DNA from: Desulfovibrio ferrophilus
Lineage (GTDB): Bacteria > Desulfobacterota > Desulfovibrionia > Desulfovibrionales > Desulfovibrionaceae
Length of the DNA stretch: 64,000 nucleotides
Assembly (NCBI RefSeq): GCF_003966735.1
Contig: NZ_AP017378.1
Coordinates: 3,182,905 to 3,246,904 of the forward strand
Direction of reading: 5' to 3'
Below are positions 34,497 to 36,740 of the stretch, one piece after another (positions within the stretch are counted from its first letter, which is position 1; each line of letters starts with the position of its first letter). The notes under the pieces are model-generated. The model was not told the origin of the DNA. It ran no database searches and was given only the letters and a program-made list of their open reading frames with translations. The position numbers and the translations under genes are program-made.

Positions 34497-35183
34497 TCAG
34501 GCCTCGAAGAGTTCGGAGATGGCTGTGGCGAGGGTTGCCAGTGCACCAGCCAGATCCCAATGATCCTTGTCGCGGGAACCGACGACATTGGAGATGGACC
34601 GGGCTTCCAGGAATGGGAGATCGGCGTGCAGACATCCCAGTGCCAGGGCAAAGCCTTCCATGTTTTCCATGGCAGGCTGGTAGCGCTGTTGCAGGTTGCG
34701 GGCATGGTTCTCGGTGCCGGTTGCAGCGGATACGGTCAGGCTCGCTCCAAGGGGCCAATCACTGGGCAGATGAAGTCCCATGGCCTGGGCTGCGTTGGTC
34801 GGGGTCAGAGGGATACAGTCATGGATTGGCCCCTGGGGTGTGCTTGCCAGGGGAAATCCGATGCCTTTGGGGTCGATTCCCTGCTCCGTGCGCAGCCCGT
34901 ATTCAGGCCAGGTTTCCGTATTGGCGATGAGCATGGAGCCCAGGGGATGCAGGGCGAGGTCAAAGCTTCCGGCCACCCCCAGGTTCAGGATGCCTGTCGG
35001 GCGTTCCACTCCCAGCATTCGCCCTAGGCACAGGGCCGCATTCACAGGGCCGACTCCGGTCACGGCGACCAGAACAGACTTCCCGGCAATGATCGTCTGC
35101 CGCCAGTGTCCCTGTGCGGGGGCCTCGAAACCGGGCAGGGCGGCGCAGAATTCCTTGGCTGTGGCAAAGAAAAGGGCCAGCAT
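34497..35183 (-). CDS. mqnB: Futalosine hydrolase
   Basis: Nucleoside-phosphorylase-fold hydrolase, 228 residues, that releases hypoxanthine from futalosine. The motifs VAVTGVGPVNAA, LNLGVAGSFD and the purine-ribose site AMENMEGFALA fit MqnB. Its ATG begins 2 nt after the stop codon of the UGA-containing gene upstream, so the two are translationally linked. Confidence 0.93.
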   Translation of the reverse strand: MLALFFATAKEFCAALPGFEAPAQGHWRQTIIAGKSVLVAVTGVGPVNAALCLGRMLGVERPTGILNLGVAGSFDLALHPLGSMLIANTETWPEYGLRTEQGIDPKGIGFPLASTPQGPIHDCIPLTPTNAAQAMGLHLPSDWPLGASLTVSAATGTENHARNLQQRYQPAMENMEGFALALGCLHADLPFLEARSISNVVGSRDKDHWDLAGALATLATAISELFEA

Positions 35184-35185
35184 GG

Positions 35186-35410
35186 CTAGTCCTTGACCAG
35201 AGTCACAAGCAGATGCCCGCAGGGCAACAGCTCTTTGCCGATCTGCGATGCGCCGTGATGCTCGGCAAGGATGTCGATCTTGAACATCGAAGCTCCATCT
35301 ACCTCTGCCTCCAGCTTACCACCCATGGGCAAGTTCTTGAGGTGTGAACTCACCTCGCGGAAACCCAGTCAGCATTCGCGCCAGCAGTTGATGCGGGGGA
35401 TGTCGGACAT
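35186..35410 (-). CDS. Candidate selenoprotein, TusA/SirA-like, with in-frame UGA
   Basis: A 75-codon frame fills the gap between the nucleotide-sugar dehydrogenase and mqnB. ATG at 35410 follows AGGA; codon 14 is TGA (35369-35371); the frame then stays open to TAG at 35186, 2 nt before mqnB. Downstream codons keep the high G/C third position of real genes. The N terminus reads INCWREC-U-LGFREV. Spacing matches the TusA fold as I recall it: catalytic Cys, 16 residues, Gly, x, x, Leu (Cys13, Gly30, Leu33), then a VDG/DD turn and a DI pair. UGA falls where TusA has the Pro of its Cys-Pro pair. A hairpin just after the UGA fits a bacterial SECIS. If UGA is a true stop, only a 13-residue stub or an internal 46-residue start at codon 29 remains. 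Confidence 0.6.
35336..35371 (-). promoter_or_regulatory. SECIS-like hairpin following the in-frame UGA
   Basis: After the UGA come 12 nt, then GAGGUG-AGUUCA-CACCUC (35339-35356). The 6-bp stem has a 6-nt loop whose second base is G, and the loop begins 18 nt after the UGA. A lower GUUUC/GAAC pairing extends it. This fits the general bacterial SECIS description (short apical stem, G among the first two loop bases, loop 16-37 nt from UGA). Confidence 0.5.
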
Positions 35411-35420
35411 ATGTCGATTC

Positions 35421-36740
<1,320 letters not shown>

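Follow-up and report, generated by a model that had tools for sequence, protein, structure and literature searches.

The question raised by this locus is whether an in-frame UGA, located in a short frame between a nucleotide sugar dehydrogenase gene and mqnB, is a stop codon or a codon for selenocysteine (Sec), and what kind of protein the complete frame may encode. In the window (the whole 64,000-nt stretch of DNA analysed), a 75-codon frame runs on the minus strand from 35410 to 35186. It begins with ATG, has UGA as codon 14, specifies 74 residues when this codon is counted as Sec, and ends with TAG. The standard-code annotation cuts the frame at the UGA, which leaves a 13-residue product. 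The features of the locus are as follows:

35186..35410, minus strand: putative TusA-like selenoprotein gene (74 residues, Sec at position 14; TAG stop included)
35369..35371, minus strand: in-frame UGA, codon 14, read as Sec (142 of the 143 copies read have TGA here)
35372..35374, minus strand: Cys13 codon, whose residue is paired, by its spacing and by extrapolation of the alignment, with the TusA Cys that carries sulfur
35384..35386, minus strand: Cys9 codon (first Cys of the CxxxCU motif found in subfamily 1; the copies of subfamily 2 that were read have Tyr, Ser or Phe here)
35339..35356, minus strand: bacterial SECIS-type hairpin GAGGUG-AGUUCA-CACCUC (6 bp, loop of 6 nt, G second in the loop)
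35418..35422, minus strand: putative ribosome-binding site AGGAA, read from the sequence
35421..36740, minus strand: upstream neighbour, nucleotide sugar dehydrogenase (TIGR03026, 381.1 bits)
34497..35183, minus strand: downstream neighbour, mqnB, futalosine hydrolase (TIGR03664, 174.3 bits)

The ATG is placed 10 nt past the dehydrogenase gene, whose stop codon overlaps the AGGAA ribosome-binding site, and 2 nt separate the end of the frame from mqnB. The TGA at codon 14 lies immediately 3′ of the Cys13 codon. Reading of the sequence located the frame, the UGA after Cys, the ribosome-binding site, the fit of the frame to the gap and the hairpin exactly where a preliminary description of this DNA had placed them.

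The first protein search matched 11 of 59 genomes (the window's own genome counted), with one internal TGA per match. A profile built from those relatives detected members in 54 of the 348 genomes of the class, and in each of these members the frame runs on through a single TGA; a wider profile matched 23 of 395 genomes of the phylum, 22 of them new and all with one TGA. The latter constitute a second subfamily, in which the typical motif is DYRGDCU (U, Sec), compared with CWxDCU in subfamily 1. A combined profile, designated A3, matched 18 of 55 genomes in the class of G529, 78 of 242 in the class of G433 and 32 of 85 in the class of G571.

In total, the family was found in 185 of the 1,061 genomes searched, all of a single phylum; in this total repeats are counted once, three Sec-less genomes and one frameshifted copy are included, and G1019, rejected as a chance match beside frames full of stops, is left out. 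At least one copy whose match spans the TGA is listed for 181 of these 185 genomes. The other four are (i) G822, G915 and G932, which have Leu at the Sec column, and (ii) G869, whose copy is frameshifted and has the Cys-UGA pair in another frame. One further candidate, in G1009:C138, was rejected since it is an ordinary TusA, and the window protein, used as a query, gave no match in plasmids.

Several copies have peculiarities of their own. In the class of G433 (G942, G766 and others) there are 2-3 paralogues per genome, which differ on both sides of the Sec, with UWG or UKG on its C-terminal and DCU or HCU on its N-terminal side. G774 (contig C108), like G869, carries a frameshifted copy, and the copy of G784 contains an extra TAA.

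The DNA of 143 copies was read, i.e. the 54 members of the class, the 22 new members of the phylum and 67 further copies. The Sec column is TGA in 54/54, 22/22 and 66/67 of these copies, respectively (142/143 overall), and the residue immediately before it is Cys in 54/54, 22/22 and 66/67, the lone exception being a Thr in G916. TAA occupies the column in one copy, the second of the two in G937 (G937:C24:17464-17664; locus L233). The Cys and the hairpin of this copy are intact, and the other copy, elsewhere in the same genome, is listed with TGA. Trp was found at the column in none of the copies read, and Cys in none of the 143 copies nor in the three full-length members devoid of an internal stop.

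Conservation of the sequence 3′ of the UGA, to which the preliminary description had attached importance, was found in the relatives, where one domain extends on both sides of the codon. The conserved domain starts 5′ of the UGA, which is at odds with homologues all starting after codon 14. In five within-genus sets, the frame downstream of the hairpin has pN/pS values of 0.10-0.57; judged by these ratios, the region 3′ of the hairpin is under protein-level selection.

The genome itself contains the Sec machinery whose presence the earlier description had proposed to verify, namely tRNA-Sec (80.9 bits), SelB (396.6 bits) and selD, the last of which has its own in-frame TGA and thus provides an internal positive control. 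In the class, tRNA-Sec is listed for 52 of the 54 carriers versus 236 of the 294 non-carriers (Fisher p 0.0027, uncorrected for descent). The two carriers for which it is not listed, G109 and G022, are 75% and 67% complete.

A hairpin beginning 12 nt after the UGA and bearing G as the second base of its loop had been described at this locus, and both features are present. The window hairpin has a 6-bp stem and a 6-nt loop, which starts 18 nt after the UGA, and its predicted energy is -9.3 kcal/mol. It lies within every listed constraint of a bacterial SECIS model as given in the available part of a published review (a stem of 4-16 bp, a loop of 3-9 nt with G among its first two bases, a distance of 16-37 nt to the UGA and an MFE <= -7.5; PMC13188914), although when 24-nt windows were folded 8 of 76 members were above the -7.5 kcal/mol limit. 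Taken alone, the window hairpin is unremarkable (z = -1.34; an equal or better fold was obtained with 21 of 200 shuffled sequences), and therefore the case for a SECIS rests on comparison. Rfam gave nothing at gathering scores over positions 35000-35600.

The comparison was made across both subfamilies. In subfamily 1, 49 of 54 members can form a perfect 6-bp stem, in either of two registers that leave a loop of 6 or 4 nt. Among 39 diverse members, the 6-bp hairpin occurs in 34, versus 1.21 expected from synonymous shuffles (relatedness uncorrected); it is also present in 21 of 22 subfamily-2 members and 59 of the 67 further copies, the hairpin being imperfect in 5/54, 1/22 and 8/67 copies, respectively. 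Position 2 of the loop is G in 75/76 and 66/67 copies, and GC, AT, CG and TA pairs interchange at several positions of the stem.

The choice of codons follows the same structure. Where the loop encodes Ser, the codon is AGT in 50 of 52 cases, while long ORFs nearby use AGT for 225 of their 4,189 Ser codons (5.4%; relatedness uncorrected). Codon choice departs from background at each of the positions +5 to +10, which form the hairpin (p=0.0005, the simulation floor; relatedness uncorrected), and shows no departure at +11 to +16. Bias outside the hairpin was detected at +1, +4, +19 and -5 (p 0.0015 or less) and at -3, -2 and +17 (p <0.05). Judged by these comparisons, the hairpin is a covarying, SECIS-type structure, conserved across the family.

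Two other readings of the UGA were considered. If it were an ordinary stop, the gene would encode a 13-residue leader peptide and the remainder would be a separate short gene or noise. This agrees with the standard-code annotation, a GTG start is available downstream of the UGA (at 35353), and some members of genus g340 keep the frame with Leu at the Sec column. Against it, in the aligned members the sequences before and after the UGA belong to a single domain, the column is UGA rather than UAA or UAG in all but one of the copies read, the SECIS-type hairpin covaries and the predicted fold extends across the codon, and we regard termination at codon 14 as extremely improbable. Insertion of Trp or some other standard amino acid at the UGA, whether through suppression or through a changed genetic code, is suggested by the open frame alone and can practically be dismissed, given that the adjoining mqnB terminates with TGA, that tRNA-Sec, SelB and a UGA-containing selD are present beside a conserved SECIS-type hairpin, and that no copy read has Trp at this column.

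On this comparative evidence, it is nearly certain that the window gene encodes a selenoprotein with Sec at UGA codon 14. Decoding of this codon as Sec by SelB and tRNA-Sec, via the downstream hairpin, is likewise strongly supported by the sequences.

The protein had been described beforehand as being of the TusA type, on the basis of its residue spacing. AlphaFold models, built with Cys in place of Sec, were obtained for the window protein (pLDDT 86.9; 39-row alignment) and for the protein of G529 (pLDDT 97.1; 23-row alignment, mostly of subfamily 2). For both models the best match in the PDB was the YeeD part of 8k1r_B (Z 11.4, rmsd 1.9, 73 aligned for the window model; Z 11.3, rmsd 1.6, 70 aligned for the G529 model), and the next TusA-type structures were 3hz7, 1dcj and 3lvj (Z 9.3-10.2). 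Unrelated folds scored close to these (Alba, Z 8.7, with the window model; aTrm11, Z 9.0, with the G529 model), and the Foldseek E-values were weak (best 7.7e-3, none <0.001).

Profile comparison pointed in the same direction. In one-to-one hhalign comparisons with 21 TusA domains of the same order, subfamily 1 reached E 4e-4 at a probability of 35%, and the combined alignment E 1.1e-5 at a probability of 82%. TusA was the Pfam family most often matched by members (5/39 and 6/35), with E 2.1e-6 for the best of them. Two members scored singly against the Pfam TusA model reached 19.9 and 22.2 bits, below its cut-off of 28.6, and the window protein had no match in Pfam, TusA included. Profile A3 also matched the ordinary TusA of G1009 (E 9.3e-4). 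Both subfamilies are modelled as adopting the TusA fold.

The CPxP motif of TusA is absent from the family, nearly all members having C-Sec-x-G or C-Sec-x-A and a Pro in the second place occurring only at locus L135; in the 21 TusA domains of the same order, both CPxP prolines are invariant. The earlier assignment is upheld by the predicted fold, the profile comparison and the weak Pfam hits; with CPxP lacking, the protein is TusA-like and not a TusA.

The proposed location of Sec at the first CPxP proline proved to be the best register. The stretch aligned by hhalign starts at residue 18, and its gapless extension backwards, an extrapolation over five residues, pairs Cys13 with the Cys of TusA and Sec14 with the leading Pro of CPxP. 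The Pfam stretches of two members, whose starts also lie C-terminal to the Cys-Sec pair, lead to the same register, and 17 residues separate Cys13 from the Gly after helix 1, exactly as in the genome's own TusA. A register shifted by one residue, with Sec on the Cys of TusA, is less likely, though compatible with the structural matches, which give ranges only. Considering the predicted fold, the Cys-to-Gly spacing and the extrapolated alignment, Cys13 very probably corresponds to the sulfur-accepting Cys of TusA and Sec14 to the first Pro of CPxP. We consider it highly probable that the product of the window gene is a small selenoprotein belonging to a new family, with a TusA fold and a Cys13-Sec14 pair starting helix 1.

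The term "undescribed", applied earlier to this selenoprotein, agrees with the available sources. Pfam and NCBIfam contain no model of the family, and apart from TusA they gave only stray hits (TrkA_C and other low-scoring ones), mostly to single members. Table 1 of a 2026 review covers 119 families and, in the portion available, contains no entry for TusA or SirA, the related entries being YeeE/YedE and DsrE-like (PMC13188914). No Sec-containing TusA was found in the accessible part of the open-licence literature on selenium and selenoproteins, supplements aside.

No confirmed Cys homologue was found in two scans of contigs of all species, one made with a single protein and the other with an alignment. 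Both scans used Cys for Sec, so that patterns across the Sec position were blind to UGA forms; the alignment scan rested on one subfamily-1 pattern, which matched 76 stretches, none of them confirmed. Selenoproteins without a Cys homologue were described as scarce in the available text of an older study (PMC1914089). The recent deep-Sep pipeline filters on known Sec homologues or Cys-containing homologues; in the accessible sections its authors state that a Cys homologue now seems to exist for every known selenoprotein, and that families lacking one may be lost at their filter (PMC12013277). This would explain, perhaps, why the present family was overlooked.

Loss of Sec can be followed in genus g340. 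The three full-length members devoid of an internal stop (G822, locus L230; G915, L229; G932, L228) have DTL, DIL and DTL at the place of DCU, i.e. both Cys and Sec are lost, with the rest of the frame kept in the Leu forms. In the same genus, G880 (L243) and G891 (L244) have DCU, and G916 (L235) has DT-UGA. The series from DCU through DT-UGA to DTL or DIL suggests, at the level of sequence, a stepwise loss. Since the corresponding TusA position in the best register is Pro, and since the losses lead to Leu with the Cys gone, a case can be made for a Sec that arose without a Cys precursor.

In subfamily 1, the dehydrogenase gene is directly upstream in 33 of 54 loci and mqnB is downstream in 33 of 54, and in 32 of 54 the gene lies between the two. 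To our knowledge, neither the nucleotide sugar dehydrogenase nor mqnB has a role in sulfur or selenium metabolism. A role of the protein in menaquinone synthesis or sugar metabolism was set aside because the neighbours change completely in other lineages.

Other surroundings were found in two lineages. In genus g7, the gene follows rpsA in all 16 carriers; further upstream lie a double-cubane-cluster reductase (NF040772; 16/16) and an acyl-CoA dehydratase activase (TIGR00241; 15/16), and downstream a TauE/SafE permease (PF01925; 15/16), each of the three having been named by a scan of one member. In the class of G571, 24 of the 31 carriers have the gene preceded, on its own strand, by a LysR regulator gene that ends 16-336 nt before the UGA; in G1031 the regulator gene is downstream on the opposite strand, and some other loci of this class end at contig ends. 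All five upstream regulators scanned passed the cut-off of LysR_Sec_metab (NF040786), the NCBIfam model for LysR regulators associated with selenium metabolism. Within the stretch examined, no LysR gene was found in subfamily-1 loci or in the other classes examined.

As far as the available part of a 2015 comparative study shows, the LysR_Se subfamily occurs in SelD-containing organisms, and in one organism a CoA-substrate-specific activase and a 2-hydroxyglutaryl-CoA dehydratase subunit are among the genes linked to YedE, YedF, DUF3343 and LysR (PMC5322559). By virtue of the LysR link in the class of G571 and the reductase and activase link in g7, two lineages place the gene in selenium-type surroundings; the window's lineage does not. 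This context is limited, the LysR link being confined to one class and the reductase and permease link to one genus.

Some further associations were observed. In the class of G571, an ORF for an MBL-fold hydrolase precedes the LysR-selenoprotein pair at four of the loci examined first, L148, L151, L152 and L157 (genomes G630, G683, G611 and G701); the ORF scanned, that of G611, gave only NCBIfam matches below cut-off. A CbiK-type sirohydrochlorin chelatase, a DUF4198 protein and a molybdopterin oxidoreductase recur beside the subfamily-2 gene (L138, L139, L142, L143, L146 and relatives; family f76). The window's genome also carries, apart from the new gene, a cluster of a YeeE/YedE-like permease ORF, a CPxP-containing TusA and a small ORF (G000:C1:1870160-1872009; L001 225-2074), the permease and the small ORF being judged by eye. 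A true YedF (TIGR03527, 196.8 bits) is encoded at G000:C1:1041836-1042471 (L002 1486-2121), beside a pseudouridine synthase-like ORF identified by eye.

Comparison with known systems defines the position of the family. With TusA/SirA (PF01206; E. coli TusA, 3lvj, 1dcj), it shares the predicted beta-alpha-beta-alpha-beta-beta fold, a length of about 75 residues, the Cys at the start of helix 1 and the distance from this Cys to the Gly that follows the helix; it differs in the replacement of CPxP by C-Sec-x-(mostly G/A), in the Pfam scores of the two members scored singly, which lie below the cut-off, and in its neighbours. YeeD/TsuB (8k1r), the thiosulfate-decomposing partner of the YeeE permease, is the best structural match, and in genus g7 the new gene also precedes a gene for a membrane permease. 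YeeD, as described in the available text of PMC11073785, has CPxP where the family has C-Sec; moreover, the permease here is of the TauE/SafE type, it occurs in one genus only, and none lies beside the window's gene.

A tie to selenium metabolism has been reported, in the part of PMC5322559 available, for the TusA-type domain of YedF (TIGR03527, the selD-linked SirA-DsrE protein). Unlike the window protein, which has 74 residues and one domain, YedF has a second, DsrE-like domain and CPxP. No TIGR03527 match was listed for the window protein or the members scanned, and the frame of the window genome's own YedF has no internal stop. The vicinal Cys-Sec is shared with the CU-motif selenoproteins SaoC, SaoL, HgcA, MbdU and KCU-star, as these appear in the accessible part of PMC13188914; the new family is set apart from them by family names, and its NCBIfam hits are stray, single-member ones. 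With regard to the missing Cys form, it resembles GrdA and a Geobacter cytochrome candidate, both once thought to have no Cys homologues. GrdA has since been reported, in the text available, with Cys homologues (PMC12013277), and in the Geobacter candidate a SECIS was not found, according to the corresponding part of PMC1914089, whereas a SECIS-type hairpin is present in the new family.

By analogy with sulfur carriers, we tentatively propose that the protein is a Cys-Sec acceptor of sulfur or selenium with reductive release, active in chalcogen (S/Se) handling. Available descriptions state that the TusA Cys takes sulfur from IscS (PMC2854127) and that the YeeD Cys, joined by a cis Cys-Pro bond at the start of a helix, binds thiosulfate and goes through perthio states with release of sulfide (PMC11073785). 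With this Pro replaced by Sec, a selenolate would stand beside the loaded Cys, of which the simplest reading is a carrier that releases its own cargo. In such a cycle, (i) Cys13 would pick up sulfane sulfur, as TusA and YeeD do, or selenium of the same oxidation state, (ii) the Sec14 selenolate would attack the Cys-bound atom, creating an internal Cys-S-Se-Sec bond, (iii) the bound atom would leave as sulfide or selenide, or be passed on, and (iv) a cellular reductant would reset the Cys-Sec pair. The analysis shows the gene, the conserved UGA, the SECIS-type hairpin, the decoding machinery and the predicted fold; the cargo, the partner and the chemistry are inferred.

It is possible, though rather unlikely, that this TusA-fold selenoprotein is instead a thiol/selenol oxidoreductase, whose pair would cycle to a selenosulfide and reduce disulfides, peroxides or other substrates without any S/Se cargo. 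In other selenoproteins, adjacent Cys and Sec residues form a redox motif, and this counts for an oxidoreductase, as does the double-cubane reductase upstream of the gene in one genus. Most uncharacterised selenoproteins are also thought to be redox proteins (available text of PMC13188914); against such an activity, the predicted fold is that of a sulfur carrier, and a selenium-associated LysR regulator is linked to the gene in one class.

A more specific form of chalcogen handling, which we consider unlikely, is that of a selenium-trafficking selenoprotein. Its Cys13 would bind zero-valent Se (or S) and its Sec14 would release it reductively, so as to supply or detoxify selenide for SelD, under the control of LysR in one lineage; Sec would have replaced Pro, and the protein would never have had a Cys form and would have lost its Sec together with the Cys.

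Binding of a metal or metalloid (mercury, arsenic, copper) by the Cys, Cys and Sec side chains, for detoxification or delivery, is improbable: CxxxCU in subfamily 1 and the metal-related names of several CU-motif selenoproteins (MerB-like SaoL, mercury-methylation HgcA and metal-binding MbdU, in the accessible part of PMC13188914) speak for it, and the replacement of the first Cys by Tyr, Ser or Phe in the subfamily-2 copies read and by Leu in G040 (subfamily 1), together with the absence of a metal-resistance gene among the named neighbours, a small part of all neighbours, speaks against it. Only the Cys-Sec pair is common to both subfamilies, and a CxxxCU metal site as a family-wide feature was set aside since subfamily 2 does not conserve the first Cys.

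The family described here adds a widespread selenoprotein family of a kind apt to be missed by current methods. The proposed Cys-Sec acceptor makes testable the idea that such a pair would equip a sulfur carrier with a reductive release step of its own, and the link to a regulator in one lineage connects the family with the question of cellular selenium delivery.
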